Below, piece by piece: positions 1 to 64,000 of a stretch of DNA of 64,000 bases. The position numbers and the translations under genes are program-made. Position 1 is the first letter of the stretch. Each line of letters opens with the position of its first letter. Origin of the DNA: Nakazawaea peltata (Eukaryota > Ascomycota > Pichiomycetes > Alaninales > Pachysolenaceae). The stretch is from positions 2,545,135 to 2,609,134 of the forward strand of contig BCGQ01000001.1 in NCBI GenBank assembly GCA_001599355.1, given 5' to 3'. Below the pieces are notes generated by a model, which worked only from the letters and a program-made list of their open reading frames with translations, was not told the origin of the DNA and ran no database searches.

Positions 1-145
1 TTTGCAAATGGCTACGATCAATTCACTTACAACTAAGAAGAAGATATTCAACATTCAGCTTAGCTCAGGTACAGATGCTGAATTCCAGCTGGCAGTGGAA
101 AGGCTCTCGTTCGTCCTAGATGAATACTACAATGATAATTTATAA
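1..145 (+). CDS. 3' end of an unidentified protein gene (partial)
   Basis: Reading from base 2, this stretch is open to a TAA at 143-145 and encodes about 47 residues ending in EYYNDNL. The frame is open to the window edge, so the start lies outside. The tail has a short basic patch (TKKKIF) and then a mixed amphipathic segment (EFQLAVERLSFVLDEYY) that looks helical. I do not recognise the family. It converges on the kinesin gene, with only 9 bp between the two stop codons. It could also be a last exon. Confidence 0.5.
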   Translation, partial: LQMATINSLTTKKKIFNIQLSSGTDAEFQLAVERLSFVLDEYYNDNL

Positions 146-154
146 ATGCTGTCT

Positions 155-2854
155 TTAAAATATAGAACTAATATCTCCAAATAAACTCTTAGGTTCATTC
201 TCTTTGTAAGTTTCATCATCGGCTTGCATCATATCGGAAGTTTCAAAGAAACCTTTCTCTTTAGAAAGTTCTGGGGTGTCCTGTCCTTCTTTAGCCTCTT
301 CTTCATCGTGTTTCTCGGGTGATACATTAATATCAAGTCTTCTTGGTTGAAGAGTTCTTTTAGGAGGACCCAAATTGAATTTCGCCAAAGGTGTAGAATC
401 AGGGTCATCACCACGATGTTTCACCGGATCAGGAGGAACTAACTTTCGAGATGTAAGAGACGTACTTTTCAACTTAAACTGTTTCAAGCCATTGAAAGAT
501 TTACTGTTCTTTGGGGGTGCAGAAATGTTCATCTTCTCTTGAAGACTTTGATGCAATGGAGTATCCTTCAGATCATCATCAGACATATCATCATCGTTCT
601 CGAAATCCGAATATGACTCAGATGATTCAGACTCACTATCTTTATGAGGAACCTGCCAACGAACCCGTTTCGGTTTGGATTCCTGAATTCTTGCAGGCGA
701 TCTGGATTTGGTTATTTTAGCTGGGGATTTATGTAATGGAGAAGGAGCCCGTTTGAAACTTCTTCTTTTAGGATTTAAAGAAGGAAAGCCACCTGTAGAA
801 AGAGAATTGATCCCAGATGATTCTGAATAATCATTCAAAGGAACCTCAAGCGGAATATTGGCTTCAATCAAAGTGTCTAAAGCATTTGAAACGTCAGAAA
901 CAATACTTTTCAAATTCTCAACCTTGATCGAATCATGCTCAAGACAAGATTTCAAGAGTCTCAAGAAATTCATACTCTGGAACTTGAAAGAAGACAATAC
1001 TGAAACGGACTCGTCGAAGATAACCGAACTCTCATATAATATCTCCCTCTCTACGGAACTTCTCAATCTTTCAATATGGATTTCAAAGTTGATAGTATCG
1101 AAGGAAGACCAACATTCATCTTCTGATAATCTCTTCAATATGGATTTCGGAGTATTGTTCAAAATATGATCCAATTGAGTTTCTCCAGCATACAGTTTTT
1201 CTAAATCGTCGATTTGTAAGAGATACTTTGTATGTAAAGTCTCAGCTTTGTGAACAATAGAGCTAAAACCGGGAACAATAGAATCAAGCTCTAAAAGATC
1301 ATCCTCCTCTTCTCGAATATTGAAGATTTTATCAAAAGACAGAACGAAATCCCCAACTTCATGAGCTAACACTTTCAAGATCTTCCGTTTGGCGAGTACG
1401 AACAGCTTCTGCTTCTTTATGATGCTATGATTGTCGATAGCATGAGCAATTTCATCCAAACCTTCAATTGCCAGCTTTTGGATCCTCTCATATTGCATTG
1501 ATTGTTGAGACAATGCCTGTTCTACAGCCTTCTTCTCTTTATTTCTCAAAAGTTCGATCTCTTGCTTCTGTTCAGTGATCATTTTCAAATATGAACCGAC
1601 ATGTCGATTCAAATTGTGTCTATTTCTAATCACTTTAGTCTTGATCTCTTTAGCTCGATTGGCATATTTCAAAGTATTCAATGTCTCATCATAATGCTCA
1701 GAAGAAGGGGATACACAAACAATCATTACAGTTTTACAATTGCCCCCAAGCGAGAACTTCAATAATCTAGTCAACTTGGAGTCTCTGTAAGGCACATGGT
1801 TACGTCTTTTAGGGTCGCATAAAGCATTTATACAGTTTCCAAGTGCCAATAAAGATCTGTTAATATTAGCACCTTCTTGTAATCTTTCGCCAGTGTTCTT
1901 GGTGGCAGCAGCTCTTTCACTTCCAGCAAGATCAATGATCGACAAGGTAGCAAAAGTATGTTCTTCTGTCAATCCTGAACCTTTAGGCCGAGAATCAATA
2001 TTAATTTGTAACACAGCATGTGATCTGGATGATGTAGCATTCAGCTGAGTAGGAGAGACAGTTCTTCTTGAATTACCTAAAAGAATAAGATCCATAACCT
2101 GACCAACGGAATTTGGCTGGAAACTTGATAAGTTCGACACCGTTATTCTTTTATTCTCATCCTCTCTAATACTCAATTGTTTCTTCTCCCCTTCTGGTAC
2201 CAACAAATCATGGAGATTCTCATTGTAAATCTCTAAATAACTTAAGGTCAAGTCTACTATATGAGAGTCTCTTTTAGCTTCAATCTTTTCGAAAAGCTCA
2301 TTCATTGTGGAGAAAATGATCCCGGGATTCTCTGGGGTCCCTGAGATAGTGTGGGTCTTACCGCAACCGGTCGCCCCATATGCAAAAACAGTGGAATTGT
2401 ATCCATCTAAAACATTATCTAGTAATGCTCTAGTAGTTCCTATATAAACGGATTCTTGAGACGCGGTCTCGTCGAAAAGTCGGTCGAATATGAACCGATG
2501 TTCTCGCACCCGACTCGACACAGCTCTATTCTTTGTAGGTGTTATGTTTTGAGGCCTGTTGGGAGTCGAAATCGAGCCTGAACCAGCGCTATTTCCAGCC
2601 AGAGCTTCCTCTAACTGAGTAGATGGAGCAGGATCGAAAATCAATAACCGATCATCAACAACGTTCAAGATCTTTCGTAACCCTTTCGGTTGTGTATACC
2701 CCCTATTTGAATCTGGTGAACTCAACCCACCCCCAAACGATGGCCCTACTGGCTCTGCAGTGGGTTGGATCAAATGAAGTCGCTCTTTCTCGGTGAAAGG
2801 TCGAACTCTTATACAGACAGCTATAGACGATTGCAGCGGTTTCTCGGTAGACAT
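155..2854 (-). CDS. KIP3: Kinesin-8 family motor protein (Kip3-like)
   Basis: An 899-aa kinesin with an N-terminal motor domain. The P-loop GATGCGKTHT lies near residues 160-169, followed by the switch motifs NATSSRSHA and DLAGSERA and the motor end HYDETLNTLKYANRAKEI. The motor contains a long Ser/Asn-rich loop between RVRPF and the HRFIFDRLFDE strand, typical of fungal Kip3. The neck (NLNRHVGSYLKMITEQKQEIELL) matches kinesin-8, which depolymerises microtubule plus ends and positions the spindle. The tail is basic and Ser/Pro-rich with an acidic patch. The first ATG giving MSTEKPLQ is at 2854; the upstream in-frame extension to 2899 would need a GTG start and is rejected. Confidence 0.88.
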   Translation of the reverse strand: MSTEKPLQSSIAVCIRVRPFTEKERLHLIQPTAEPVGPSFGGGLSSPDSNRGYTQPKGLRKILNVVDDRLLIFDPAPSTQLEEALAGNSAGSGSISTPNRPQNITPTKNRAVSSRVREHRFIFDRLFDETASQESVYIGTTRALLDNVLDGYNSTVFAYGATGCGKTHTISGTPENPGIIFSTMNELFEKIEAKRDSHIVDLTLSYLEIYNENLHDLLVPEGEKKQLSIREDENKRITVSNLSSFQPNSVGQVMDLILLGNSRRTVSPTQLNATSSRSHAVLQINIDSRPKGSGLTEEHTFATLSIIDLAGSERAAATKNTGERLQEGANINRSLLALGNCINALCDPKRRNHVPYRDSKLTRLLKFSLGGNCKTVMIVCVSPSSEHYDETLNTLKYANRAKEIKTKVIRNRHNLNRHVGSYLKMITEQKQEIELLRNKEKKAVEQALSQQSMQYERIQKLAIEGLDEIAHAIDNHSIIKKQKLFVLAKRKILKVLAHEVGDFVLSFDKIFNIREEEDDLLELDSIVPGFSSIVHKAETLHTKYLLQIDDLEKLYAGETQLDHILNNTPKSILKRLSEDECWSSFDTINFEIHIERLRSSVEREILYESSVIFDESVSVLSSFKFQSMNFLRLLKSCLEHDSIKVENLKSIVSDVSNALDTLIEANIPLEVPLNDYSESSGINSLSTGGFPSLNPKRRSFKRAPSPLHKSPAKITKSRSPARIQESKPKRVRWQVPHKDSESESSESYSDFENDDDMSDDDLKDTPLHQSLQEKMNISAPPKNSKSFNGLKQFKLKSTSLTSRKLVPPDPVKHRGDDPDSTPLAKFNLGPPKRTLQPRRLDINVSPEKHDEEEAKEGQDTPELSKEKGFFETSDMMQADDETYKENEPKSLFGDISSIF

Positions 2855-3101
2855 GACAAACTGGTACCGTGGTATCGTACCTACCTCTGATATGACCACG
2901 CCAATGCTCTTCTACTAAGTCGTGTCTGTCTGTCTGTTTGTGTACCCGATTTGTACTTTTTTTTACCCTTTTGATCGATCTTTGTTTACTTTTAGGAAGC
3001 TCTTCGCGCACCCCCAAAATGGATAATTGGGGGCAGAATCGAGCGAAATCCTGTCCCGATTTAGCTTTTATTAGAAAACACTAAAGTTTATTATATGTAA
3101 A

Positions 3102-4253: not shown

Positions 4254-4390
4254 AAAGTGATTTTCGACAGTCCAAACAATTAGGCGGTCTTTTTTAAGTG
4301 TTTAGATGATGGATCGGCTGCTTATTATTAATGAGTAAGATGTTTCGTTCAATATTGAAAGGACAAAAAGACCAGCGGAGGGAGTTTGAT

Positions 4391-4500: not shown

Positions 4501-4552
4501 ACTAGTGAAGTAAGGAGTTACAGTTAAATTGAATATGGTTACCTATATGCAT

Positions 4553-7605: not shown

Positions 7606-8373
7606 ATGATGAACCCTAACGCTAAATTCCAAGTCCAGGTCGATCCTGACGAAGATACAGAGTGGAATGATATCTTACGTGCTCATGGTGTGATCCCAGA
7701 AAAACCTAAAGATCAAACCGAAGAATTCGAAGAGGCTCTTGAAGAGGCGGTGAAAAAACTGCATGATGAAAGGTTAGAAGGCAAAGATTTGGATGAGCTT
7801 GATGAACTTGAAGGTGAAGAAGACGAGGATTTCCTTAATTTCTACAAACAAAAGAGAATGAACGAGTTGAAGGAACTCCAACAGAGATCAAAATTCGGTA
7901 GAGTCTACCCTATAACTAAGCCAGAATATCAAGATGAAGTCACCAAGGCTTCGGAGAACACATATGTTTTTTTACACATGACTCTTCAGAGTAATCTTCA
8001 ATCTAGGTTATTGTCTCTGCTTATGGCTGATTTGCTGCTGAAATTCGCCGAGGTCAAGTTCGTCGAGATCCCTGCCAATAGAGCCGTGGAAAATTACCCG
8101 GACTCAAATTGTCCTACTATTTTGATCTACCATAAAGGTGATGTGGTGAAACAGTATATTACATTGACTCAATTGGGAGGAAACAGCACTACAAAGAACG
8201 ACTTGGAGAAGGTCTTGGTCCTGGTAGGTGTCACCACCAATAAAGACCCAAGGCTTATCATGAACCAAGAGGAAGGAGAACAGGAATGGCAAGAACGTAA
8301 ATTGAGGTTTGCCCAGACTTCTATCAGAAATAGAAATACCGGCAGTGATGAAGACGAAGATTTCTTCGATTGA
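7606..8373 (+). CDS. PLP2: Phosducin-like protein 2 (Plp2), CCT chaperonin cofactor
   Basis: A 255-aa phosducin family protein with an acidic N-terminal helix (DPDEDTEWNDILRAHGVIP), then DEDFLNFYKQKRMNELKEL and a thioredoxin-fold domain (KFVEIPANRAVENYPDSNCPTILIYHKGD). Plp2 is an essential cofactor for CCT-mediated folding of actin and tubulin. Tandem CTG codons at 8035-8040 (residues 144-145) fall where relatives have Ala-Ser in TLASKFPDVKF, which fits CUG read as Ala. The tail is acidic (DEDEDFFD). Two GAGCANNNTACGA motifs lie upstream. Confidence 0.9.
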   Translation: MMNPNAKFQVQVDPDEDTEWNDILRAHGVIPEKPKDQTEEFEEALEEAVKKLHDERLEGKDLDELDELEGEEDEDFLNFYKQKRMNELKELQQRSKFGRVYPITKPEYQDEVTKASENTYVFLHMTLQSNLQSRLLSLLMADLLLKFAEVKFVEIPANRAVENYPDSNCPTILIYHKGDVVKQYITLTQLGGNSTTKNDLEKVLVLVGVTTNKDPRLIMNQEEGEQEWQERKLRFAQTSIRNRNTGSDEDEDFFD

Positions 8374-8392: not shown

Positions 8393-10070
8393 TTATATAT
8401 TCCGTGCAATGTAGTACAATAAATAAGCCTTGGTGCTTAATACTTCCTCTTTGGACACTAGTGAGATTTTGGCATCGTCGAAACGGAACCAATTATTGTC
8501 TCTATTCTTGATCAAACTAATGTAGTGGCCGGTATTTACTGATCCAATGTGACATACAACGGCAAAGAGTTCGTAGGTGAGTTCTTGGTCTTTTGGTGGT
8601 TCCAGATCCTCGGATTCCAATACATAATTCTTCATATCTAAAATCAATGGGAACAGTACATGAGTTTCGATTTTGGACGAGACAGAAGAATGTTCGAATC
8701 TCTTCAACTGGATCGCCAAGACGATAGGCAATTTACGGATCTGAAGCTGTTTATAGGCCATTGTCTTGTGACCACAGGTCTCACAATTGTATAAAACGTC
8801 CAATTTTTCGGGCTGAGTGAATCTTTCGAGACAATCTTGTAATTTAATAGATGTTCCAGGTAATGATTTGCCGGCATATTTCTTAGGGGAATGTTGGGCC
8901 ACTTCAAGTGAGAGATCCAACATCATATCAGCAGTCTTAGTGACAATATCACACTTTGAGCATCTGATCGAACTAAGAAGTGATCCTGAAAAGGTCGTGT
9001 GCACAATACAAGGACAATCCGATGAGGCGATAGATCTCCTATGTAACCCTGAAGTATCTTCTAAAAGCTTTAATTCTGATTTATGAACCTCATCAAGGAT
9101 AAATTGCCAAAATTCATGAGCGTCTTGTTCGGAATAACCGGCTAAAGACCGTTTGACTTTCCAAGCAGCCGCAAGTAATGAGGTTAAACCATACCCAGTG
9201 GTTTCGTCTTCGGTATAAAATGCAGTAAACACCTCGTCTAAACAACACAGAATGCAAGCCGTCGGATCATCTTGGCATTTGAAATGTTTGGCGGCCAAAA
9301 AATGGTCTCTAATAAGAGGGTTATGAATTAAAGTCTGAATGATAGAAGACATGAAACAAGTGGCACCCATATTGACGAGTCCACGAAGCCCAGTAGTAGC
9401 TTTATAAGACGGAATTATAGTATGTTGAAGGATCTTATCGGAGATTTCAGCAGTGGATTTCCCAATTGGCTGAATCGAATGTACTTAATTGCAGTTAGTA
9501 AAAAATCGTAGATTATATGGACATGAATATCCAACTTACTATTAGTCACCCTTGAGTCTCTGAGATGCTTAACACGCAGCTGTTCTAACAATTCATGACT
9601 GACATAATTCCCACATCTGAAACAAAATAAATTCCCCGAAGTCGAATCAATCCCTTGATTTGTTAGTATGAAATGGTCGTGAAAATGAATTTCAGGTACT
9701 TACCGAAAACATGGCCGGCACTTTTCGCATGACTGAAAGCATGGCCCTTCTTAAAACATCCCATATGATTACACTGTAAACACATATGAAGCGAGCCACA
9801 GTTCCCGGAACAGATCTTGCACTTCAACACTTTTGATCTAAGCGCCAAAATGTCACGATGCTCGATGGCGGAGGAATGTGGAGAATTCTTCGGGATAAAC
9901 TCCTGCAGTATCGAGACTGATGACACATTCAATGCAAGTTTGTAATTCTTAAGCGCCGTTACCTTGGCCAGTGTAGACATCACTTGTTCCAAATGTTGGC
10001 AAGGATCAAAACTCGTATATTTAACGCCGGTGCCTGATGGGCTGGGCGCTTGATCTATGGAGGATGACAT
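8393..10070 (-). CDS. UBP8: SAGA deubiquitinase Ubp8, three exons
   Basis: Spliced join(8393..9483, 9540..9653, 9704..10070) on the minus strand gives 523 aa. The introns are 56 and 50 nt, each with a GTAAGT donor and a TACTAAC branch. Exons 1-2 encode the ZnF-UBP domain (DPCQHL; CKICSGNCGSLHMCLQC; GHAFSHAKSAGHVFG; NLFCFRCGNYV), which anchors Ubp8 in the SAGA DUB module with Sgf11/Sus1/Sgf73. Exon 3 carries the USP fold: Cys box GLVNMGATCFMSS with catalytic Cys about 203, a zinc-binding CxxC pair (IRCSKC; CETCGH), and His box SVNTGHYIS at about 480. It removes ubiquitin from histone H2B. All splice junctions keep phase and join the zinc-finger ligands across the exons. Confidence 0.93.
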
Positions 10071-10424: not shown

Positions 10425-13400
10425 ATGGACAACTTTGATCTGTTTAACGATTATAGCGCTTATATGTATGGTTATGGGGAGAATGGTTACGGCGCTAATG
10501 AAGGTCTGGAGTCCAGTCACGCCGATGCTACGTCTCTGTATTATGGATGGGATAATAGTGGAATGGGATACACTGGAGATCAAGTGAATTATGAGACTGC
10601 TGATTTACTTCTGAATTTTGATCTTGAGGAAAAATATCCATCTTGGGTTAAAGATGAGACTGCCCCTTTGACTAAAGAAGAGATTTATCATATCTTTGAG
10701 ACTATTCAACTGCTGTTAGGCTTCCAGCGCGATTCCAGTCATAATATGTATGAGCTTTTGATGTCTCAATTAGAATCTAGAACTTGTCGATTCCCTGCTT
10801 GTGATGCTTTAGTGTCTTTACATTCGGATTACATTGGTGGTCCAAATGCTAATTACCGGAAATGGTACTTCTCTGCCCAATTAGATTTGGATGAACACGT
10901 AGGTCTTCTGACGCCCAGGAATTCCAAGGAAATGGCTACCCCATTGACCAAACTGCAAATCAAAAAACTTTCCAAACCTACAAGTCCAGTCAATCTAGAC
11001 TCGGCAATGTTCAGATGGAAACTCAAAATGAGTAAATACACACCAACAGATATGGTCAATCAATTATGTCTTTATCTTTTGATTTGGGGTGAAGCAAATC
11101 AAGTCAGGTACCTCCCTGAATGTATTTGCTATTTATACAAATGTGCCAGCGATTACTTATTTTTGGAGGATGGACAGATGAATGACCAACTTGGTTTACA
11201 TCAAGAATATGACTTTCTCAACACCGTCATTGGACCTCTCTACAAATTCATGAAAGATCAACAGTACGAGAAAATTAAGGGTAAAGATGTCAGAAGGGAT
11301 AAAGATCATGATTCCATTATAGGATATGATGATATGAACCAATTGTTTTGGTATCCCTCTGGAATCGCTAGGATAGTCACTACTGACGGGTATTATCTTG
11401 TCAACTTCCCAAAGAGTAAAAGGTACACGAAGCTTTCAAAGGTAGACTGGTCAAAGGTTTTCTACAAGACATATTATGAGTCAAGAAGTTGGTTGCACTT
11501 CTTTACAAACTTCAGCAGAATTTGGATCATTCATATAGCTCTGTTCTGGTTCGCAACATCTGTTAATTCTTCTCCATTATATACCCCCGGATACCACCAA
11601 CTACTAGATAATCCACCAACTCCTCAGGCAAGATGGGCAGTTCCTTCTTTGGCTGGTCTATGGTGTTGTATTATTCATCTCATTGCCATTTTAGGAGAGA
11701 TCTTATTTGTTCCAAAACAATGGCCTGGAAGAGAGAAATGCCGCTACAAACTCCTATTTGCCATTTTCTTACTCTCTATTAATGTGATCCCTCCCATTTA
11801 CGTATTCTTTATTCTTCCAGTCAACGTTTATTCCTTGAGTGGTTACTGTGTTTCCATCGCTCACTTTGTCATTTCTTTGACTACAGTTTTATTTCTACTG
11901 CTGAAACCATTGGGCGGTCTATTTGGTTCATATTTGACCAGAGGACGGCAGTTTGTTTCTTCTCAAACCTTTACCGCCTCTTTTCCACAATTATCGCCTT
12001 CGGATAGAATATCCTCAATATTACTTTGGGTCGCCGTCTTTACATGCAAGTTTATGGAGTCATATTACTTCCTTACGCTTTCTGTAAAGGATCCAATAAG
12101 AAACCTTTGGACTATTTCTCTTACAAGATGTCACGGAGATGCTTTACTTGGGAGTACGCTATGCAAGTTTCAGTCAATAATTGTTCTTCTGTTAATTCTC
12201 ACTGTCGAGCTAATCTTGTTCTTCTTGGATACTTATTTATGGTACGTGATATGCAACTGTCTTTTTTCGATCCTGCTTTCTTTCGCTAGTGGCATATCAG
12301 TGTTCTCTCCTTGGAGAAATATATTTATCAGACTTCCACAAAGAATGGCTATAAAACTACTAGACCCAGGATTAAGTGAGGTCTCAGATACTGATCCGAA
12401 ACTTGCAATTTCACAATTATGGAACACCATAATTCTTAGTATGTTTCAAGAGCACTTACTATCAAAGGAACAAGCTTTCAATTTATTGTATCGAGGACGG
12501 AATCTACAGGGAAAGGGGGTTGATGAAGTAGATGCTCCTTCTTTTTTCCTTCATCAGGATGATGGGTCTGGTCGGAAATCAGATTACTTCCCTCCTTCCT
12601 CTGAAGCTGAGAGAAGACTTTCTTTCTTCGCTCATTCATTATCCATGAATGTCACAGATCCTGTTCCAATTAACTGTCTACCTGCTTTTACAGTAATTGT
12701 TCCTCATTATTCTGAAAAGATCATTCTCCGATTGAGAGATATAATCAAAGAAGACAAATTCTCACGCATATCCCTTCTTGAGTATTTGAGACTGCTACAT
12801 AAACCAGAATGGGTCAACTTTGTTGAAGATTCCAAAGAGTTGAACAAACTTGAACTGGAATCGTCAAAAGATAATACCTATAAAATTCCTACTGACCCAT
12901 CAACGGATAATATTCAAGACTTACCTCTTTACTGTGTGGGATTTAAATCCAGTTCACCGGCAAAAATTTTGAGAACTAGAATTTGGGCTTCCTTGAGAAC
13001 ACAGACCTTGTATCGAACTGCTGCAGGTTTCAGTAAGTACTGGGATGCAATCAAACTTCTCTACAGAATCGAAGAGTTTGATAATTGTGCAGAAGGTGCA
13101 GCTGATTCTGATTTGGAGAAGCTCTTATTCCGCTTGGCATCTAATAAGCTGGGCCTATTGATATCAATGCAACGATATCAGCAATTCACTCCTGATGAGC
13201 ATGAGCAGGTCAACATATTGATTCGTAGGTACCCACACATCAGAATAGCTGTCTTGGAAAAGGTGGATTCGGAAACCGAGGATAGAGATCCTGAATATTA
13301 TTCGTGTCTTTTAGGAGCAAATCCTTCTCCTGGAGAAGGGGGTTTGTCTCTCATCTATAGGATCAAACTCTCAGGAAACCCTATCATGGGTGATGGAAAG

Positions 13401-15782
13401 TCGGACAATCAAAACCACTCATTAATTTTCTACCGTGGAGAATATATTCAAGTTGTAGATGCTAATCAAGATATGTATCTTGAGGAATGTTTGAAAATTC
13501 GATCCATATTGAGTGAATTTGAAGAGATGACAATTTCAAATACTGACCATATATATGATCCCACTTACTCTAGCACAAATATAGATCCTGTGGCAGTTGT
13601 AAGTGCAAGGGAACATATTTTCACAGAGCAGTTCGGTGTCCTTGGTGATATTGCTGCCGGTAAAGAGAAGACCTTTGGCACATTGTTCGCGAGAACCATG
13701 GCTACTATAGGGTGTAAATTGCACTATGGACACCCAGACTTCCTCAACGGAATATTTATGACAACCAGAGGAGGTATATCCAAAGCACAGAAAGGGATAC
13801 ATCTTAATGAGGACATTTATGCAGGAATGACTGCAGTCTGTAGAGGGGGTAGAATTAAACATTGTGATTTCTTTCAGTGTGGTAAAGGAAGAGATTTAGG
13901 TTTTGATTCTATTTTAAATTTCACCACTAAAATTGGTAGTGGTATGGGAGAACAATTGCTATCGAGAGAGTATTTTTATTTGGGTACTCAACTTCCAACG
14001 GATCGGTTTCTCTCTTTTTATTATGCACATCCAGGATTTCATATCAATAATGTCTTGATTACATTGTCAGTTCAATTATTTATGTTATTATTGATAAATC
14101 TCGGGTCAATGAACCACGAGTTGATTAAATGTGTTTACGACAAAGATGTTCCCTTTACAGATCTACAGAAGCCCTTGGGATGTTACAATTTGGTACCTGT
14201 TTTAGATTGGATCAGTAGGTTTGTAGTTTCAATTTGTCTTTGTTTTCTCGTTTCGTTTATGCCCCTATTGGTCCAGGAATTCTCTGAAAAAGGCTTCTGG
14301 AAAGCTTCGACCAGATTCTTATCCCATTTAGTGTCATTAAGCCCAATATTTGAAGTATTTGTATGCCAAATATATTCTTCGTCCTTCGTCAATAACCTCA
14401 CATTTGGGGGTGCAAAATATATACCTACAGGAAGAGGTCTAGCAACGGGAAGGTCCAGTTTTACAAGACTTTATAGTAGTTATGCAGGATCAACTCTTTA
14501 TGTTGGGCTCCGACTTGGTCTAATGTTGTTGTTTGTAACACTAACTATGTGGCAGGTCTCGTTGATATGGTTTTGGATAACTGTGTTCTCGTTGTGTCTT
14601 TGTCCTTTCATTTTCAATCCTAACAATTTCGCCTTTTCGGACTTCTATTTGGACTACAGAGAATTCCTCAGATGGCTCACCAGGGGAAATTCAGTTTTCC
14701 ACTCCAACTCCTGGATAACGTTTACTAGGTCTTCAAGGTCCAAGATCAGTGGAGTCAAAAGAAAGAATACAAGATTTTGGAGACAAGCTGAAACTATACC
14801 CTTGCTGAACAAAGTTACATTTACAAATGCACTTTTCTCAGAGTTGGGTTTCCCTTTATTCCAGCTGATCTTCTCCTTCTTCAGCTACATCTTTATCAAT
14901 TCTCAAACCGGAGTTTTGGATCCAGAGACTGTTCAGTTGATTATACGTCTTGGCCTCATCATCTTTTTACCAATTATTGTTAATTCCGTGATCGTGATTA
15001 TTAGTTTTGGCATATCTTGTTTGTTAGGGCCATTACTTGTATTGTGTGGTCTCAGAAGGCTTGGGGGGTTCAATGCAGCCGTAGTTCATGGATTATGCGT
15101 GTTGAACCATATTTTATTTTTCGAGGTTACAATGTTCTTAGAAGGTTGGAATGTCAAACGTGGTCTAGCCTGTCTGATTTGTTCGATATTTTTCCAAAGA
15201 TCATTCTTTCAATTGGTGAAAATCTTACTTCTCACTCGGGAATTATCAGTTAATTACTCTAATGACCTGTGGTGGTCTGGATTATGGTTCAAAAAAGAGG
15301 CAGGCACTCTTACAATTAGTCAACCTCTTCGAGAATTCGTTGTGAAGATCATGGAGATGAGTTTATTCACTGTCGACTTTCTATTTGGGCATATATTATT
15401 TTTGGTGATGACCCCCTTTGTGTTCATTCCCTGTATTGATGTACTACACACTGGTATGTTATTCTGGATGAAGCCAGGGAACTATTTCAGGGATAGCATA
15501 TTAAGTCGGAAGCAAACTAAAGTGAGAAGACGGAGAGTTGGTGTGTATTTCGTTCTCTATTTTGTGATAATGATCATATTAGTGGGGGTAATTGTTGGAC
15601 CTATCGTGATTGGTAAAACTATGAATTTTAATAGGGAGTACTTCGGAGATATTGCAGAAGGGATAGTTGTGGAGTTAGTACAACCAGATAAGCAAAATTC
15701 TAATGACACCGGTTCAAATGCTCCTTTAAGTATAGTCACATATAAGCCGTCTTGGAAGAAGTACTCTACACATCCATTTTAG
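10425..15782 (+). CDS. Beta-1,3-glucan synthase catalytic subunit (FKS family, Fks3-like size)
   Basis: A 1785-aa polytopic GT48 enzyme that makes cell-wall beta-1,3-glucan from UDP-glucose at the plasma membrane. Family blocks are present in order: SLHSDYIGGPNANYRKWYF, GYDDMNQLFWYPSGIARIV, SQTFTASFPQLSP, FFLDTYLWYVICN, TLRTRIWASLRTQTLYRT-like, NPIMGDGKSDNQNH, VLGDIAAGKEKTFGTLFAR, GGRIKHCDFFQCGKGRDLGF and FLSFYYAHPGFH. Hot spot 1 reads FLTLSVKDP (Fks1 FLxLSLRDP) and hot spot 2 DWISRFVV (Fks1 DWVRRYTL). The length equals that of S. cerevisiae Fks3 and is shorter than Fks1, so it may be a divergent paralogue. CTG codons at 12273 and 15267 align with Gly/Ala and Ala of relatives. Confidence 0.9.
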   Translation: MDNFDLFNDYSAYMYGYGENGYGANEGLESSHADATSLYYGWDNSGMGYTGDQVNYETADLLLNFDLEEKYPSWVKDETAPLTKEEIYHIFETIQLLLGFQRDSSHNMYELLMSQLESRTCRFPACDALVSLHSDYIGGPNANYRKWYFSAQLDLDEHVGLLTPRNSKEMATPLTKLQIKKLSKPTSPVNLDSAMFRWKLKMSKYTPTDMVNQLCLYLLIWGEANQVRYLPECICYLYKCASDYLFLEDGQMNDQLGLHQEYDFLNTVIGPLYKFMKDQQYEKIKGKDVRRDKDHDSIIGYDDMNQLFWYPSGIARIVTTDGYYLVNFPKSKRYTKLSKVDWSKVFYKTYYESRSWLHFFTNFSRIWIIHIALFWFATSVNSSPLYTPGYHQLLDNPPTPQARWAVPSLAGLWCCIIHLIAILGEILFVPKQWPGREKCRYKLLFAIFLLSINVIPPIYVFFILPVNVYSLSGYCVSIAHFVISLTTVLFLLLKPLGGLFGSYLTRGRQFVSSQTFTASFPQLSPSDRISSILLWVAVFTCKFMESYYFLTLSVKDPIRNLWTISLTRCHGDALLGSTLCKFQSIIVLLLILTVELILFFLDTYLWYVICNCLFSILLSFASGISVFSPWRNIFIRLPQRMAIKLLDPGLSEVSDTDPKLAISQLWNTIILSMFQEHLLSKEQAFNLLYRGRNLQGKGVDEVDAPSFFLHQDDGSGRKSDYFPPSSEAERRLSFFAHSLSMNVTDPVPINCLPAFTVIVPHYSEKIILRLRDIIKEDKFSRISLLEYLRLLHKPEWVNFVEDSKELNKLELESSKDNTYKIPTDPSTDNIQDLPLYCVGFKSSSPAKILRTRIWASLRTQTLYRTAAGFSKYWDAIKLLYRIEEFDNCAEGAADSDLEKLLFRLASNKLGLLISMQRYQQFTPDEHEQVNILIRRYPHIRIAVLEKVDSETEDRDPEYYSCLLGANPSPGEGGLSLIYRIKLSGNPIMGDGKSDNQNHSLIFYRGEYIQVVDANQDMYLEECLKIRSILSEFEEMTISNTDHIYDPTYSSTNIDPVAVVSAREHIFTEQFGVLGDIAAGKEKTFGTLFARTMATIGCKLHYGHPDFLNGIFMTTRGGISKAQKGIHLNEDIYAGMTAVCRGGRIKHCDFFQCGKGRDLGFDSILNFTTKIGSGMGEQLLSREYFYLGTQLPTDRFLSFYYAHPGFHINNVLITLSVQLFMLLLINLGSMNHELIKCVYDKDVPFTDLQKPLGCYNLVPVLDWISRFVVSICLCFLVSFMPLLVQEFSEKGFWKASTRFLSHLVSLSPIFEVFVCQIYSSSFVNNLTFGGAKYIPTGRGLATGRSSFTRLYSSYAGSTLYVGLRLGLMLLFVTLTMWQVSLIWFWITVFSLCLCPFIFNPNNFAFSDFYLDYREFLRWLTRGNSVFHSNSWITFTRSSRSKISGVKRKNTRFWRQAETIPLLNKVTFTNALFSELGFPLFQLIFSFFSYIFINSQTGVLDPETVQLIIRLGLIIFLPIIVNSVIVIISFGISCLLGPLLVLCGLRRLGGFNAAVVHGLCVLNHILFFEVTMFLEGWNVKRGLACLICSIFFQRSFFQLVKILLLTRELSVNYSNDLWWSGLWFKKEAGTLTISQPLREFVVKIMEMSLFTVDFLFGHILFLVMTPFVFIPCIDVLHTGMLFWMKPGNYFRDSILSRKQTKVRRRRVGVYFVLYFVIMIILVGVIVGPIVIGKTMNFNREYFGDIAEGIVVELVQPDKQNSNDTGSNAPLSIVTYKPSWKKYSTHPF

Positions 15783-42301: not shown

Positions 42302-42764
42302 AATAAATGATATAAGTTTATGTGATTGTATTTTGGTTATCTCTAAATAGTCTATACCTGCCATATATACCCTATCTCGTATGTGTTTATACAGTCTATG
42401 TAATTCTACTGTGTGTTCGACCTACATTTCCCGATTTTTCCCCTAGTTTCCCCTATTTTCCCTCTATTTTCCCTCTATGTTTCCTCACGTTTCTTAACTA
42501 TGTGCTTCTTACTATGTGTTTCTTAACTATGTGTTTCTTAACTATGTGTTTCTTAACTATGTGTTTTTTACTATGTGTTTCTCATTTTTTTCTCTTTACT
42601 ATGCGTTTTTACTATTTTTCCTCTTAACTATGCGACTCCATTCCTCTCCTTCCCTCACTATCTGTTCCTGAATTGCTCAGATGCGCATGAAAAATCTCGA
42701 TCTTTACCGATTTTTCACCAGGATGATCTCAACTCATCGTATACCAAACGCGTCAACACCACCA
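42302..42764. other. Intergenic region APL2 to CMR1
   Basis: 463 bp between tandem genes: pyrimidine-rich (TTTCCCC runs) at about 42425-42490 and a 15-bp tandem repeat at about 42490-42630. An in-frame ATG at 42681 would extend CMR1 by 28 codons but is not conserved. Confidence 0.6.
42490..42630 (+). repeat. Degenerate 15-bp tandem repeat (ACTATGTGTTTCTTA)
   Basis: About six to eight copies of ACTATGTGTTTCTTA, the central three perfect and the outer ones diverged (ACTATGTGCTTCTT, ACTATGCGTTTTT). It lies in the CMR1 promoter/leader. The unit is pyrimidine-rich and creates an artefactual open frame encoding repeated CFLTM. Confidence 0.85.
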
Positions 42765-44746: not shown

Positions 44747-46402
44747 TTAACTACTATGGTAATCTCCGGAATTGTAAATTGAAATATCATTCTCGGCCTT
44801 GACATCTACGATACCATTAATGGCAGCGCCAGCTTCTCTGATTCTTTGATTAGAAGCACGGATCTCTTCTAATTCGGCAAGGTAACGATCTTCAGCTCCA
44901 GTGATGTATTCTCCGGTGAATACACCAACCTCAAAGCCGGTTATACCAGGAGCTGGGCCTTGGAGAGCAATTGGACTGTCAACTGGTGGTCTCGAAGGTT
45001 CTAAAAGAGTGTCGTCATCCTCATCTGGTTGACAACAAGAGACCAAATCTTCCAAATTTTGATAGAATACTTTGTCAGCATGTATTATCTCGGCAATCTC
45101 CTCGACACTTCTATTATAACCGACAAGCATCTTGGTATCGGCCAAATCAATACCATAGATATGGTTGTATCTTATTACTGGGGAACAAGAAGCGAAGTAA
45201 ACTCTCTTGGCACCGGCTTCTTTGGCCATAGAAACAATTTCTTTAGAAGTTGTTCCTCTGACGATGGAATCATCGACTAAAAGAACAGATTTGTTGTAGA
45301 ATTCACTTTGCATGGCATTCAATTTACGACGAACCGACGAGGTTCTCTCTTTTTGGTCTGGCATAATGAAAGTTCTACCGACATATCTGTTCTTAACGAA
45401 ACCTTCTCTGTAAGGTAATTTCAAACGGTTAGCACATTCAAGCAGAGAATGACGAGAAGTATCTGGGACAGGGATAACGACATCGATTTCATCCTCGACG
45501 CGTTTACCTTCTTTCAAGAATTGTTTGTCGATTCTAGCGGCCAATTTTTCACCCATCTTAATACGAGATCTGTACACAGAAAGACCTTCCAAGACGGAAT
45601 CAGGTCTGGCAAAATAGACGTATTCAAAGATATCTGGAGTATAACTTTGGATCTCGGCAACTTGCTTGAACTCTGGGATCATAGTATCCTTTGGAATAAT
45701 CACAGCTTCACCTGGAAGAATATCTCTGAAAGTATCAAATCTATGAGCTTTCAAGACGACACTCTCGGAGGCCAACATATAATCTTTGGAGCCATCTTCG
45801 TTGGTTCTTTCTCCGATCAATAACGGTCTGATACCGTTAGGATCTCTGAACCCGATCAAACCGTATCCGGCCAACATCAGTGTACAAGCATAAGCACCTC
45901 TACATTCACGATAGACACCTTCTAAAGCTTTGAAGATATCGTTGGAGTTCACTCTGGCCTTGTCGTATTTCTCCAATTCCAGGGCGAAGATGTTCAACAA
46001 GAGCTCGGAATCAGAGTCGGTGTTGATATGTCTATGCACGGTCTCGTCAAGGTATTTTCTCAACTCGGCGGCGTTAACCAAATTTCCATTATGGGACATC
46101 GAAATACCATATGGAGAGTTGACGTAGAAAGGTTGAGCTTCTGATCCAGCACTGGATCCTGCGGTTGGGTAACGTAAATGAGCAATACCCATGTTACCGA
46201 TCAACCCAGTCATTCTCAGCTGGGTGAAAACGTCCCTAGCCATACCATTACCTTTGCATTGGTAAAAACGACCACGCTGAGCACAGGTTACGATACCGGC
46301 GGCGTCTTGACCTCTATGTTGCAAGAACATAGCGGCGTCCAACAACTCTGGGGCGACATTTCTTTCTGGTCTGGCGACTACCAAGCCCAAAATACCACAC
46401 AT
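44747..46402 (-). CDS. ADE4: Amidophosphoribosyltransferase (Ade4)
   Basis: A 551-aa enzyme of the first committed step of purine synthesis (PRPP + glutamine to phosphoribosylamine). It starts MCGILGLV, so Cys2 is free to be the glutaminase nucleophile after Met removal. The glutaminase domain shows QHRGQDAAGI, LRYPTAGSSAGSEAQPF and SHNGNLVNA; the phosphoribosyltransferase domain shows GFRDPNGIRPL, VPDTSRHS and the PRPP loop VLLVDDSIVRGTTS at about 373-386. CTG at 45443-45445 (residue 320) falls at the conserved Ala of DTARTCALECAN. Three TGACTC boxes lie just upstream. Confidence 0.96.
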   Translation of the reverse strand: MCGILGLVVARPERNVAPELLDAAMFLQHRGQDAAGIVTCAQRGRFYQCKGNGMARDVFTQLRMTGLIGNMGIAHLRYPTAGSSAGSEAQPFYVNSPYGISMSHNGNLVNAAELRKYLDETVHRHINTDSDSELLLNIFALELEKYDKARVNSNDIFKALEGVYRECRGAYACTLMLAGYGLIGFRDPNGIRPLLIGERTNEDGSKDYMLASESVVLKAHRFDTFRDILPGEAVIIPKDTMIPEFKQVAEIQSYTPDIFEYVYFARPDSVLEGLSVYRSRIKMGEKLAARIDKQFLKEGKRVEDEIDVVIPVPDTSRHSLLECANRLKLPYREGFVKNRYVGRTFIMPDQKERTSSVRRKLNAMQSEFYNKSVLLVDDSIVRGTTSKEIVSMAKEAGAKRVYFASCSPVIRYNHIYGIDLADTKMLVGYNRSVEEIAEIIHADKVFYQNLEDLVSCCQPDEDDDTLLEPSRPPVDSPIALQGPAPGITGFEVGVFTGEYITGAEDRYLAELEEIRASNQRIREAGAAINGIVDVKAENDISIYNSGDYHSS

Positions 46403-46697: not shown

Positions 46698-46979
46698 TTA
46701 AGGCTTGTATTCATGATCCTTATCCCATAACCACCCTTGTCCTCCTCTGTATATACCATACCCGATCATTACAGCTCCAGCTGTACGGATACTTCTTTTC
46801 CACCACATTGGATTATCACCTGGTTTCTCTCCTATAAACATCTTACCACTAGTTAAATACAGACCACCCAGGATCCCGGTGAAAGTTGCCATAAGTTGAC
46901 ATGGGAGACAATCTTTGAGTTCCTCGTCAGAGAGATCTCTTGATTTTGGGGGATTAAAGATGTCGAGTATATTAGACAT
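46698..46979 (-). CDS. Small DUF4536/DMAC1-type mitochondrial membrane protein (YDL157C-like)
   Basis: A 93-aa protein with a CLPCQ motif (KDCLPCQLMATFTGILGGLYLTSG) followed by two predicted membrane helices (LMATFTGILGGLYLTSG and RTAGAVMIGYGIYRGGQGWLW). The CLPCQ plus GxxYL layout is that of the small DUF4536 family, including S. cerevisiae YDL157C, a mitochondrial protein. It is separated from CMR1 only by ADE4, whereas YDL157C is the direct neighbour of CMR1 in S. cerevisiae, which supports the assignment. Confidence 0.7.
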   Translation of the reverse strand: MSNILDIFNPPKSRDLSDEELKDCLPCQLMATFTGILGGLYLTSGKMFIGEKPGDNPMWWKRSIRTAGAVMIGYGIYRGGQGWLWDKDHEYKP

Positions 46980-47778
46980 GGGTGAACGGTAAGTGAGTGA
47001 TTAGTGGTGAGATTTAGTGGTGATGAGATGAAAATTAAAATGCAGAAATTGAAAGAGAAAAATCTGAAAGGAAGGAGCAGAAAATTAAATAATGATCTGA
47101 ACTGATAATACTCATGGCGCGAGTTACATAAGGTCGTGTATAATGAACAAATCAAACAGCAATTAAACAGTATAGAGTAGGCAATTAAGCATAAGGGAGG
47201 GGTAGATGACAGAAGAATCATTCATATTTCAGATGTCTGTCAATTTATACACAGCCCGAATTCCAGTTTCCTGGCGCGCCTTCCCACCTTATCCCCTCCC
47301 TTACTTCTATTCCCTTACTTTCCTCCCTTACTTTCCTCCCTTATTTTTCTTCCCTTACCTTACTTTTCCTCCCACAGCCTCACCTTTCCTTCGGCAAAAA
47401 AATCCACGCTAAAGCCGCGTGTTGCTTTTGTGTGTTTGTACGTGTCTCGACTAGGCTATAAATAGAAGGGTGAAAACAATAAAGATAACGAGTCGGATTG
47501 TTTTGAATTGCTCTTCATGTAAGAGCCTGTAAATTCCAGTGTAAATTCCAATTGTACCATCTCTTCCATCTCGTACCATCTCTTCCCCAAACTCCTCCCA
47601 AATTATCTCCCAAATCTTCTGCTCATCTTCCCCTCCGCCTCCCCGTCTCTCTTATCATTTGGCGTTTCCCGCACCAATTCCCCCAAACAAATCAATAAAA
47701 AAAAAAAAAAAAATCAAAACCCTTGCTGCTTTAATTAAAATTCAACCAACTCACAAAGTTACCACAATCCTCATAGAT
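46980..47778. other. Divergent intergenic region, DUF4536 gene / RIM9
   Basis: 799 bp. It contains a coding-strand pyrimidine tract for RIM9 at about 47280-47390 (CTTACTTTCCTCCC repeats), C/T-rich sequence again at 47560-47650, and a run of 17 A at 47697-47713 about 65 bp before the RIM9 ATG. No ORF with conserved content. Confidence 0.6.
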
Positions 47779-49311
47779 ATGGGCGCTTTTTCTCTCATTG
47801 GAAGCTTCTTCCATATCGGCGCTTTGGCCTTGCTTTTACTAGGCACGCTTACCGCCTCGGTCACTCGTTCTCTTTACTTGGCTCAAGATGGCGATTACAC
47901 TTTTGGACTTTTTGGGTATTGTGTCTCTGGGAAGAGCTCATGTTCGACGGCCAAGCTCGCTAATTACTCGTTTGAGAACCTCAATCTCAGCTCAGATTAC
48001 TTGTTTGACACCGACAAGAGGGACACTTTTTTGAAGATCCTTCTCGTGTATCCAATTCTGTGTGGGTTGACTTTTGTTAGTTTTATTTTGGCGTTAATTA
48101 ATTTGAGACGCTCTGTACTGATCTCGCTGATTTCAATTACATTTGCCGTGCTTCTGTTTGTCGCCGCTGCCCTTTGTTGTGTATTCACTTTCCTTGTATT
48201 CTATCCACATGTTAAATGGGGAGCTTGGATTCAAATTGGAAGTGCTGTTTTGAATCTTATTGCTTTGGTATTTATGATTATCAATTTGAAATTATCACAG
48301 GGATCTTCTGGGGATGATATTACAAGTATGGAAGGGGGTGTGGAGAAACTTGATGATGAGTATATGGGATCATCTGCTTTTGCTGGTGATACTACTGCTG
48401 CTTCTAATGTTCCTATCAATTCGAATTTCAGAATGCCTCCTAAATCTACATTCAATAATGGGTCATTTAAGTCGAGTGATTCTTCTTCGATTACTGAGAA
48501 GAAGTCTATTAATGATATAACTGTCCAACAGAACAGGTTTCCTTCGTCTAATTCTCAGCTTACGAATAATTCGCTGAACAAGATGTATGGAGGTGTTGGT
48601 GCTGGTGTTGTTGGAGCCGGTGCAGCTGTAGCTGGTGCTACTGGTGCAGCCGCAGCTTCTAGTTCTTCTGCTAACCCAGGAAGATCTATCCCAAGAGAAC
48701 CAACTTTACCCCAAATTTCAAACCCTTACGAATCCTCAGATGATAGAAATATCTTAAGAGTCGATGCTCAAGAATATAATGATCCAAATTTGGAAGATAA
48801 TAATTCATTTGAAGCCGATTCTGATTTCACTAGTGTCTCTCAAAGAGCTGTTAATCCTAGATATTATCATGGAGCCAATGCCCCAAGATCACAACAACCT
48901 CAGGGGCCACCTCATCCAGTCCAAGGTCCGGTCCAAGGCCAACCAATGCCAATGCAAGGTCCTCCTCAACAATACGGTCAACCACCTCGTCAAAATCCAA
49001 ACTTTGGTCCTCCTCCTCAACAATATATGATGCAACAAAACCCTTACGCTCGTACAGCTCCAATTCAACAACAATATCGTCCTCCACATGCCAACAGACC
49101 TCCAAGAGCCAACTCATCCGATTTGATCTTGCAAACAAGCCCCGATTTTATCGGAAGCAATAAACCATACAATAGATATGGTGGAAATGGCGGACAGCAG
49201 TTCCAACAACAACCTAGAATGGGTCTGAACTACAAGACCAGACAGCAGAAACAACCTCAATTACCTCCTCTGTCCATGACAAGAGATAGTCCTTATAGTT
49301 CTTTTACCTAA
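47779..49311 (+). CDS. RIM9: Rim9/PalI-type four-helix membrane protein of pH signalling
   Basis: A 510-aa SUR7/PalI family protein. The N-terminal 190 residues hold four membrane helices: AFSLIGSFFHIGALALLLLG; an extracellular loop with DGDYTFGLFGYCVSGKSSC; ILLVYPILCGLTFVSFILAL; LISITFAVLLFVAAALCCVF; and WIQIGSAVLNLIALVFMIIN. A long cytoplasmic tail is rich in Ser/Asn and then Gln/Pro (repeats of PQQ, QGP). Rim9 chaperones the Rim21 alkaline pH sensor at the plasma membrane. ATG 47779 starts right at the first helix; the in-frame extension to 47659 needs a TTG start and runs through a Lys-coding poly(A) stretch. Confidence 0.85.
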   Translation: MGAFSLIGSFFHIGALALLLLGTLTASVTRSLYLAQDGDYTFGLFGYCVSGKSSCSTAKLANYSFENLNLSSDYLFDTDKRDTFLKILLVYPILCGLTFVSFILALINLRRSVLISLISITFAVLLFVAAALCCVFTFLVFYPHVKWGAWIQIGSAVLNLIALVFMIINLKLSQGSSGDDITSMEGGVEKLDDEYMGSSAFAGDTTAASNVPINSNFRMPPKSTFNNGSFKSSDSSSITEKKSINDITVQQNRFPSSNSQLTNNSLNKMYGGVGAGVVGAGAAVAGATGAAAASSSSANPGRSIPREPTLPQISNPYESSDDRNILRVDAQEYNDPNLEDNNSFEADSDFTSVSQRAVNPRYYHGANAPRSQQPQGPPHPVQGPVQGQPMPMQGPPQQYGQPPRQNPNFGPPPQQYMMQQNPYARTAPIQQQYRPPHANRPPRANSSDLILQTSPDFIGSNKPYNRYGGNGGQQFQQQPRMGLNYKTRQQKQPQLPPLSMTRDSPYSSFT

Positions 49312-49399: not shown

Positions 49400-50554
49400 C
49401 TAGTGAAAGTCGTTTGTAGAAGGGATGGTTGGGCGGGAGTCGACTAGGTCAGCGTCAACGTTTGTATCGACATTTGTATCAACATTGGTATCAACGTTAG
49501 TGTCTCCTGTAGCACCGGAAGCACCCGTAGTATCCTTACTTCCATTTGAAGAATCCACCTCATGCTCCACAACAACCCTCCTTGGTCTCATCATCACAAT
49601 CAAAAAAAGCAGAAATACAACCAACGAAAGAAGGAAGATCAATCTACATTTCTGTGTCCTCTTCTGTGTCTTACTTGATACAATGAACTCTTTATCCAGA
49701 GCCCTAAGATCCACAACTACATTCTCTAGATTATAGTCGATTCTATCCAAAATGGTACCTTGATCTATGACCATATTCTCTAATTCTTTGAAGATGGTGG
49801 AAATTTCAATGACTCCCATAGCAATTTTAGATATTTCTTCCTCTCTTTGTTTCAATTCCTCTCTGTTACCATTGTACATTACCTGCTGTTGTTGCTGTTC
49901 TTCATCTAGAAGTAATACAGACTGTGATTGGGCAAGCAGTTCTCTGGAATATGACTCGATATCGTCGGCCGTATCCACCTCAAGATCGACTAAATCTGGC
50001 GGATTCGACTGCTCCTTGTTATATAATTCATAATCTTCATCGTCTCGAAGAAACTTAATGTAGTTATTCTGTAGCTTCCTGAACCTTTGACTTAACAGCT
50101 GGGTTTGGATCAGTAACTTTTTCTTAACGTTCTCACACATGACCAGATCGTCATGCCTGTCCAAATCATGTTTCATCCGATCCAATTGTCGGATCATATT
50201 GTACGACTTCTGGAAGTTCTTGGTGATCTGGAAAGTAAGGTCATCGATCTTCTTGACATCGTCGGAATTGTCGTGGAATCCGGGCAAAAGGTTTTTTTTG
50301 TACAAAAAATTCAATTCATTGGTCTTTTTATCGATGAATTGAGATATTTCTTCAACTTCTTGCGCTAGGTCTAAGAACCTTGGGGGGAGTGATTGTAATT
50401 CTATGCCTGAGTCGCCTCCGAATTCGTTGCCTACATCGATGAGCCCTTCTTCTTCTTCTCTTTGGAGATCGAATCTGGATTCGTGGTCAAGAACATTGTG
50501 ATGGGGGATCGTTCGACGATACGAGATGAATAAATTGGTTCTGTCTCTAAACAT
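49400..50554 (-). CDS. TLG2: Syntaxin-like t-SNARE Tlg2
   Basis: A 384-aa Qa-SNARE of trans-Golgi/endosome fusion (binds Vps45). The N-terminus MFRDRTNLFISYRRTIPHH is the Tlg2 N-peptide. It is followed by an Habc-like helical region (LPPRFLDLAQEVEEISQFIDKK), the SNARE motif (ISKIAMGVIEISTIFKELEN to DRIDYNLENVV) and a membrane helix at about 305-323. A lumenal tail of about 55 residues holds tandem NVDT repeats. A Gln run precedes the SNARE motif. CTG at 49697-49699 (residue 286) matches Ala of KSADKEL in other Tlg2 proteins. Upstream are a TCACGTGA element and a GAGCANNNTACGA motif. Confidence 0.92.
   Translation of the reverse strand: MFRDRTNLFISYRRTIPHHNVLDHESRFDLQREEEEGLIDVGNEFGGDSGIELQSLPPRFLDLAQEVEEISQFIDKKTNELNFLYKKNLLPGFHDNSDDVKKIDDLTFQITKNFQKSYNMIRQLDRMKHDLDRHDDLVMCENVKKKLLIQTQLLSQRFRKLQNNYIKFLRDDEDYELYNKEQSNPPDLVDLEVDTADDIESYSRELLAQSQSVLLLDEEQQQQQVMYNGNREELKQREEEISKIAMGVIEISTIFKELENMVIDQGTILDRIDYNLENVVVDLRALDKEFIVSSKTQKRTQKCRLIFLLSLVVFLLFLIVMMRPRRVVVEHEVDSSNGSKDTTGASGATGDTNVDTNVDTNVDTNVDADLVDSRPTIPSTNDFH
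49450..49505 (-). repeat. 12-bp coding repeat in the TLG2 lumenal tail
   Basis: About four units of 12 bp encoding NVDT in the last part of TLG2 (DTNVDTNVDTNVDTNVDAD). The third codon positions differ among units, so the repeat is not very recent. Probably an unstructured lumenal extension. Confidence 0.75.
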
Positions 50555-57387: not shown

Positions 57388-57420
57388 ATATTAGTGGACC
57401 GTTGTTGGTGTTATGATGTT

Positions 57421-62761: not shown

Positions 62762-63030
62762 TGGGTTGTAGGTGGGGTTTTAGGTGGAGTTGGGGTGGAG
62801 TATTTTGATGGGATAGTTGATTTGAAAGGTTTGGGCGGGATCTTTTCCGGAGATGGAAGGGCAGGAATTGGAGGCAGGAAAGGGGGCAGAAATATCAGGG
62901 GAAGGCAGATAAATTGCCGGGGATAAGAAGATTGCAGGGCCGGGGCAAAAAATACAGAAAATAGGGAGAATTTGATAGTACAGGGCAGATATTAAGAGAC
63001 AAGATATGGCAGGCAGTAGACTGGCGATTA

Positions 63031-63060
63031 GACGACAAGAGACGACAAGAGACGACAAGA
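63031..63060 (+). repeat. Perfect tandem repeat, 3 copies of GACGACAAGA
   Basis: Three identical 10-bp units followed by GACTGGAGG; purine-rich, in the RPL4 upstream region, about 380-410 bp from the start codon. Confidence 0.9.
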
Positions 63061-63372
63061 GACTGGAGGAACCGACTTTACCACTTGACTCAACCACTAT
63101 CACAGCATACCAACCAAGTACCACCAAATACTCACTCGGGAAATCTATTCACCTTCGGAATAATTCACCCAGGCTTAGCTCTCACTTCGTCTAGACTTAC
63201 CCTATCAGTGCCTCGAAATCTGCCCCGGTGAAATGACCGCTCACAAAATTGGAAACCGTTGTAGTCGTGGCAGAAAAAAATTATCTCCGTGTCACTAATG
63301 GCAGATGCAAACTCTTCTCCCGTGTCAATACCAAATTTTTCACAACGAAAAATTTTTCACCTTTCCCTTCTC

Positions 63373-63380
63373 TATAAAAA
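63373..63380 (+). promoter_or_regulatory. TATA-like element of RPL4 (TATAAAAA)
   Basis: TATAAAAA 66 bp upstream of the RPL4 ATG, downstream of a GAAAAATTTTTC block. Confidence 0.45.
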
Positions 63381-63438
63381 AATTTCAATCATCTTTTGAA
63401 TTGTTCAGTTGATCGATATCAAAATTAATACATCGGAA

Positions 63439-64000
63439 ATGTCTTCCCGTCCACAAGTTACTGTTATTTCTGCTCAAGGTGAATCCACCTCTGCTTCTTT
63501 GCCATTGCCAGCTGTCTTCAAGGCTCCAATCAGAGCTGACATTGTTCACTCTGTTTTCACCAGAGTCAACAAGAACAAGAGACAAGCTTACTCTGTCTCT
63601 GAGAAGGCTGGTCACCAAACCTCTGCTGAATCCTGGGGTACTGGTAGAGCTGTTGCCCGTATTCCAAGAGTAGGTGGTTCTGGTACTCACCGTGCCGGAC
63701 AGGGTGCTTTCGGTAACATGTGTCGTGGTGGTCGTATGTTCGCCCCAACCAAGATCTGGAGAAAATGGCACGTCAAGGTCAACCACAACGAGAAGCGTTA
63801 CGCTACTGCCTCTGCTATTGCTGCTTCCGCTGTCCAATCTTTGGTTTTGGCCAGAGGTCACAAGATCGAGAACATTCCAGAGATTCCATTGGTTGTCTCC
63901 AAGGATGTCGAGTCTATCCAAAAGACCAAGGAGGCTGTTGCCGTCTTGAAGGCTGTTGGTGCTCACAAGGATGTCATCAAGGTCATCAAGTCCAAGAAGT
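63439..64000 (+). CDS. RPL4: 60S ribosomal protein L4 (uL4), 5' part
   Basis: The first 187 residues of uL4, cut by the window edge (family length about 360). Conserved blocks are [50 protein letters not shown] and [20 protein letters not shown], the last being the extended loop lining the peptide exit tunnel. Codon usage is extremely biased toward GCT/GTC/AAG/TTG with no in-frame CTG seen, as expected for a highly expressed gene avoiding a reassigned or rare codon. No intron near the start. Confidence 0.97.

Follow-up and report, generated by a model that had tools for sequence, protein, structure and literature searches.

Evidence that CTG is decoded as alanine in a 64-kb stretch of budding-yeast nuclear DNA

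Introduction

In 2016 Pachysolen tannophilus was found to read CUG as alanine. The clade of alanine-reading yeasts (the Ala clade) was then widened to Nakazawaea and Peterozyma by a BLAST analysis of 52 yeasts together with liquid chromatography-tandem mass spectrometry (LC-MS/MS) of 18 species that looked at key positions (PMC5951914). All three genera are placed in the order Alaninales in the NCBI taxonomy. Another report likewise gives alanine for CUG in Pachysolen and Nakazawaea, citing a figure of >99% for Pachysolen (PMC8645108). The novel transfer RNA (tRNA) of the Ala clade, which has the anticodon CAG, is reported to have arisen by an anticodon mutation in a pre-existing gene, and the alanyl- and seryl-tRNA synthetases are described as needing no particular anticodon bases (PMC5951914). 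The present study deals with the meaning of the CTG codons in a stretch of 64,000 nucleotides (assembly GCA_001599355.1, contig BCGQ01000001.1, positions 2,545,135 to 2,609,134; hereafter the window), for which an initial annotation had proposed a nuclear code with CUG as alanine. We hold with a probability of about 95% that the window is budding-yeast nuclear DNA in which CTG in mRNA is decoded as alanine (NCBI table 26). The reassignment is an instance of a published and already known code, not a new one.

As in table 26 of Pachysolen tannophilus, CTG behaves as an alanine codon in the window, the remaining sense codons retain their usual assignments (57 of 60 here), and TAA, TGA and TAG all terminate genes. 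Codon and amino acid are also the same as in the Nakazawaea and Peterozyma members of the Ala clade. The G+C content of the window is 40.8%, and its overall look is that of budding-yeast nuclear DNA. Pachysolen is probably AT-richer than this by a clear margin; no published figure was found. Nakazawaea ambrosiae, at 42.3% (PMC10106607, Table 2), lies near the window, which is weak evidence for an affinity with Nakazawaea. Judged by its code, the window most probably belongs to a species of Pachysolenaceae (order Alaninales), and the G+C content tentatively points to Nakazawaea or Peterozyma more than to Pachysolen. The reassignment of CTG away from leucine is shared with the budding yeasts of the Ser1 (Candida) and Ser2 (Ascoidea, Saccharomycopsis) clades, but, unlike those CUG-Ser codes, the tallies presented here favour alanine over serine.

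Results

For a tally of the residues opposite CTG in homologous proteins, nine genes, which hold 68 CTG codons between them, were translated with every CTG left as X and aligned to PDB chains, and in the case of purF and folC to prokaryotic loci (37 for purF, with a median identity of 41%, and 30 for folC, with a median identity of 33%), with purF and folC columns of fewer than 8 homologues being dropped. The PDB chains used, among the matches listed, were 2 of 22 for adaptin, 1 of 8 for purF, 2 of 60 for the G-protein beta subunit (Gbeta), 2 of 4 for CHMP1, 1 of 6 for FKS, 2 of 12 each for Plp2 and Arp4, 2 of 28 for Tlg2 and 0 of 10 for FolC; those left out were near-identical or distant. When genome contigs were scanned with the Ade4 protein, 7 relatives from bacteria or archaea came up, and a glucan synthase search of prokaryotic genomes found no match in any of 4 genomes or 14 controls. 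Usable CTG columns came to 51, many of them with one or two homologues. When BLOSUM62 scores were summed over these columns, alanine was best at 43.0, with serine at 14.2, glutamine at −14.3, threonine at −20.6 and leucine at −67.3. The same procedure missed the standard meaning of only three of the 60 other sense codons, placing CGG as Lys (9 columns), AGC as Asn (10) and ACG as Ser (18). Bootstrapping the CTG columns put alanine on top in 4917 of 5000 replicates. Among random sets of 51 columns, alanine led in 1 of the 2000 drawn from serine codons and in none of the 2000 drawn from leucine codons.

The same columns were rescored without BLOSUM62, using residue profiles learned from the other codons of the window. 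Alanine was again best, with serine 12.1 bits, cysteine 32.4 bits and leucine 87.4 bits below it, the last being 17th of 20 candidates. When each control codon was left out of its own profile, 50 of the 51, all with 15 columns or more, were called correctly, the single miss being GTG as Ile. Of the 51 CTG columns, 21 have an Ala majority, 3 a Ser majority and 1 a Leu majority (a column that was only 32% Leu), and in 26 the majority is another residue. In the same genes, the columns of true alanine codons (n = 210) had a majority of Ala in 50% and of Ser in 7%, those of true serine codons (n = 275) had Ser in 26% and Ala in 24%, and the non-CTG leucine codons (n = 398) had Leu in 57%. CTG thus coincides with alanine in homologues at a rate close to that of true alanine codons, and shows no leucine-like behaviour. 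By Fisher's test, the CTG columns differed from those of serine codons (2.7e-4) and not from those of alanine codons (1.0). A mixture fit gave shares of 0.90 for alanine (0.51 to 1.00), 0.10 for serine (up to 0.49) and 0.00 for leucine (0 to 0.08).

Protein family profiles provided another scoring, in which each protein was read with CTG as alanine (table 26), serine (table 12) or leucine (table 1), so that only these three residues are compared. Scanning 28 proteins under the alanine reading led to 23 family rows from 21 of them, with the top family kept for each domain; AMPK1_CBM and FKS1_dom1 were left out as domains without CTG, and the seven other proteins, with the alanine scan only, comprised five with Pfam matches (SET, zinc finger, Zn_clus, CAP and a partial Rab) and two without a match. 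Over the 23 families, alanine exceeded serine by 25.5 bits (bootstrap 9.4 to 44.4; higher in 14 families, lower in 8, tied in 1) and leucine by 83.7 bits (53.5 to 116.3; higher in 19, lower in 3, tied in 1). The biggest gains over serine came from SNARE (7.3 bits), folC (3.4) and purF (3.1), and those over leucine from folC (11.3), Phosducin (10.3) and SUR7 (8.1). Some of the overlapping weaker families that were dropped lean to serine or leucine, namely (bits for Ala/Ser/Leu, an order kept throughout) UCH_1 at 77.5/77.4/78.6, Microtub_bd at 83.8/83.9/84.0, Cnd1 at 196.5/198.0/194.9 and, in the Cmr1-like protein, WD40_CDC20-Fz at 39.4/41.1/32.8. Because the family set overlaps the column set, the two scorings are not independent.

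The initial annotation had based its proposal on 13 CTG positions at which the gene family has alanine. All 13 are in-frame CTG codons on the strand it had assigned to them, and in none of the ten that have homologue columns is any residue more frequent than alanine, although several of these columns hold only one or two homologues each. In Ade4 (45443-45445) alanine occurs in 97% of homologues, and in Fol3 (39810-39812) in 67% of bacterial FolC, with 30 loci matched. The column residue is alanine in the AP1 and AP2 beta chains at beta-adaptin position 40340, in both homologues used at Plp2 position 8035 and in the one homologue at Tlg2 position 49697-49699. The CHMP1 sites show an Ala/Ser tie (25727), Ala (25742) and an Ala/Thr tie (25826), and those of Gbeta show Ala (21847) and an Ala/Ser tie (22066). 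The three remaining sites, in Rab5 (32247), Tbf1 (20369) and FKS (15267), lie outside the column comparison. Since such sites were chosen to fit alanine, they do not in themselves count as evidence that the code has changed, and a tally of unpicked codons was needed. In the window tally neither leucine nor serine stood above alanine; column tallies and family profiles alike ranked alanine first with leucine far behind, which upholds the proposed CUG-to-Ala nuclear code, and the Pachysolen-type assignment of table 26 agrees with what PMC5951914 reports.

CTG is a heavily used codon in this stretch. Translation under table 26 gives 41 open reading frames (ORFs) of at least 100 codons, from which 29 were selected by choice for codon counts. 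These 29 contain 14,968 codons, with CTG occurring 234 times, next to 356 GCT, 219 GCC, 129 GCA and 36 GCG. Taken as alanine, CTG makes up 234 of 974 alanine codons (24%), second behind GCT and above GCC, GCA and GCG. GCG is rare, and the reassigned codon shows no avoidance here. Stop usage across 28 ORFs was 14 TAA, 9 TGA and 5 TAG.

Among the nine genes of the column tally, the FOL3-like dihydrofolate synthase (NCBIfam folC; 38691-39953, minus strand, 9 CTG) scored 296.1/292.7/284.8 bits against TIGR01499, and the ADE4-like amidophosphoribosyltransferase (purF; 44750-46402, minus strand, 4 CTG) scored 424.5/421.4/419.9 against TIGR01134. Alanine was also ahead in the PLP2-like phosducin (7606-8370, plus strand, 5 CTG; Phosducin, 55.1/52.5/44.8), in the ARP4-like actin-related protein (34733-36085, minus strand, 6 CTG; Actin, 322.0/320.0/318.3), where all three aligned CTG columns are Ala, and in the TLG2-like Qa-SNARE (49403-50554, minus strand, 6 CTG; SNARE, 36.8/29.5/30.5). 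The STE4-like G-protein beta gene (21433-22737, plus strand, 5 CTG), which was aligned to PDB chains, gave 251.2/251.3/247.0 for WD40_Gbeta. The CHMP1/DID2-like ESCRT-III gene (main exon 25640-26131, plus strand, 5 CTG), aligned to CHMP1A and CHMP1B, gave 31.3/32.1/28.9 for Snf7. Its ORF (25640-26134) begins within the conserved domain, at position 38 of the Snf7 profile, and that of a Ubp8-like protein (8393-9370) begins at the very start of its domain, at position 6 of the UCH profile, so an upstream exon may exist for either or both. The beta-adaptin gene (AP-1/AP-2 beta subunit; 40208-42298, plus strand) has 8 CTG codons. The FKS-like 1,3-beta-glucan synthase (10425-15779, plus strand) has 20 and scored 1199.5/1199.7/1198.4 for Glucan_synthase; its alignments reach to about residue 985 and leave 4 of the 20 outside, 15267 among them. 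Against one FKS1 chain, 1 of its 16 CTG columns is Ala, the CTG positions of FKS being poorly conserved.

For Ric8, kinesin, the Ubp8-like protein, Tbf1 and other genes, family scores alone were obtained. The Ric8-like gene (32714-34183, minus strand, 13 CTG; Ric8, 50.4/50.1/43.8) belongs to the synembryn family, and the Gbeta gene is some 10 kb away; Saccharomyces cerevisiae is not known to have Ric8. A SUR7/PalI-family membrane protein (47779-49308, plus strand, 7 CTG) scored 68.3/65.7/60.2 for SUR7. For the WD40 protein encoded at 42681-44411 (plus strand, 16 CTG), which we take to be CMR1-like, Beta-prop_THOC3 scored highest among the families whichever of the three readings was applied (46.5/44.3/40.2); the protein stayed outside the column tally, its PDB matches being weak and confined to repeats. 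The TRF/Myb gene at 18515-21106 (plus strand, 24 CTG; TRF, 257.2/256.6/254.0) is presumably TBF1-like. A kinesin motor (158-2854, minus strand, 8 CTG) gave 374.4/373.3/374.4 for Kinesin, a tie of alanine and leucine, and a ubiquitin C-terminal hydrolase of family C12 (59019-59813, minus strand, 5 CTG) gave 174.4/174.7/171.4 for Peptidase_C12. The Rab5/VPS21-like gene, which matches the Ras family, has exons at 31866-31920, 31990-32009 and 32088-32633 (plus strand, 2 CTG) that form a single open frame once two introns are removed, the middle exon being only 20 bases long. Its CTG at 32247 falls within the third exon and stands upstream of the initial ATG of the ORF listed at 32253. A SET-domain protein (29903-31681) has extended acidic runs as well as a stretch rich in Cys, His and Asp that resembles a metal-binding insertion.

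Discussion

Several results weigh against alanine or fail to favour it. The interval of the mixture fit for alanine is wide (0.51 to 1.00), and serine is the runner-up in both column tallies. The columns of some single genes point elsewhere: those of Gbeta best fit serine, with alanine 0.7 bits lower; the 16 of FKS, with one homologue, best fit asparagine, with serine 3.1 bits over alanine; and the five of Plp2 best fit glutamine, with alanine and serine equal. Serine outscores alanine in 8 of the 23 families, Adaptin_N showing a slight preference (427.0/428.6/420.6), and many single genes are a close call. The spliced Rab5-like protein scored 194.1 (Ala), 194.2 (Ser), 195.2 (Thr) and 191.1 (Leu) against Pfam Ras, which does not separate the readings. 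A comparison free of homologues, in which the residues near CTG were set against the surroundings of each amino acid's codons, placed alanine 11th, 42 bits behind threonine and 39 behind serine, with T, K, S, P, Q, L, R, N, E and I above it. The controls of this neighbour-context test failed, with 11 of 45 right, and it was therefore given no weight; the ORF at 46853-47221 (4 CTG), which has a non-coding look, was excluded from it. No tRNA gene was found in the 64-kb window by ARAGORN, and an Rfam scan of the window at gathering scores gave no matches, so a tRNA with the anticodon CAG was not seen there.

The standard reading, with CTG as leucine and the sites explained by chance or by variable positions, could appeal to the 26 of 51 CTG columns whose majority residue is neither Ala, Ser nor Leu, and to SAC3, Ebp1_C and Arrestin_C, where leucine lies 0.1 to 0.5 bits over alanine, as well as to the tie in Kinesin. 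It is excluded by the rank of leucine (17th of 20, −87 bits), by its majority in 1 of 51 CTG columns versus 57% of 398 other leucine codons and by its mixture share of 0.00 (0 to 0.08), barring alignments at fault throughout, and its probability is practically nil. A serine code of the kind used by the Candida (Ser1) clade and by Ascoidea and Saccharomycopsis (Ser2) is rejected less strongly. Serine was second in both column tallies and at least equalled alanine in 9 of 23 families, and Pachysolen itself was first grouped with the serine readers in a 2014 position analysis, at a time when its use of alanine had yet to be recognised, as related in PMC4986446, which indicates that alanine and serine are easily confused and that caution is due. 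Alanine nevertheless stands above serine by 12 bits with the empirical profiles and by 25.5 bits with the families, and the majority ratio of Ala to Ser is 21:3 at CTG versus about 1:1 for true serine codons (P = 6.5e-5 for at least 21 Ala among 24 Ala-or-Ser columns at the serine-codon ratio, from rounded shares), which leaves the serine reading very unlikely.

Mostly alanine with some serine, comparable with the serine plus leucine reported for Ascoidea asiatica, would accord with the mixture estimate of 0.90 and 0.10 and its serine interval of up to 0.49. True alanine codons show a similar serine share (7% of column majorities), so a serine component is not needed, and the Pachysolen figure of >99% alanine comes from a report in which the 10% leucine of another study is called mistaken (PMC8645108); we regard such a mixture as less credible still than serine alone. 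It is improbable, to about the same degree as a plain serine code, that the window derives from a yeast that does not belong to the known Ala clade, which would imply a second, independent alanine capture of CUG, or from a member of that clade in which a serine share persists at CUG.

For the favoured reading of CTG as alanine, the literature suggests that the decoder would be a tRNA-Ala with its anticodon changed to CAG, which would be charged by an alanyl-tRNA synthetase indifferent to particular anticodon bases, and that the loss of the ancestral tRNA-Leu(CAG) would have preceded the capture by alanine.

Conclusions

The value of the finding is practical rather than novel. A stretch of 64 kb can suffice for calling the reassignment of a sense codon, with alanine told from leucine decisively and from serine with fair confidence. 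Proteins of this genome whose genes carry CTG are mistranslated when the standard code or table 12 is applied, on a scale given by the 234 CTG codons in 29 ORFs, about a quarter of the alanine codons. The genes of Nakazawaea ambrosiae were predicted with Saccharomyces cerevisiae as the reference, and the main text of that genome paper mentions neither codon, CUG nor genetic code (PMC10106607). The deposited proteins of Nakazawaea ambrosiae may, given such a prediction, carry leucine at CTG, and errors of this sort in the translation of CTG may sit in the databases.

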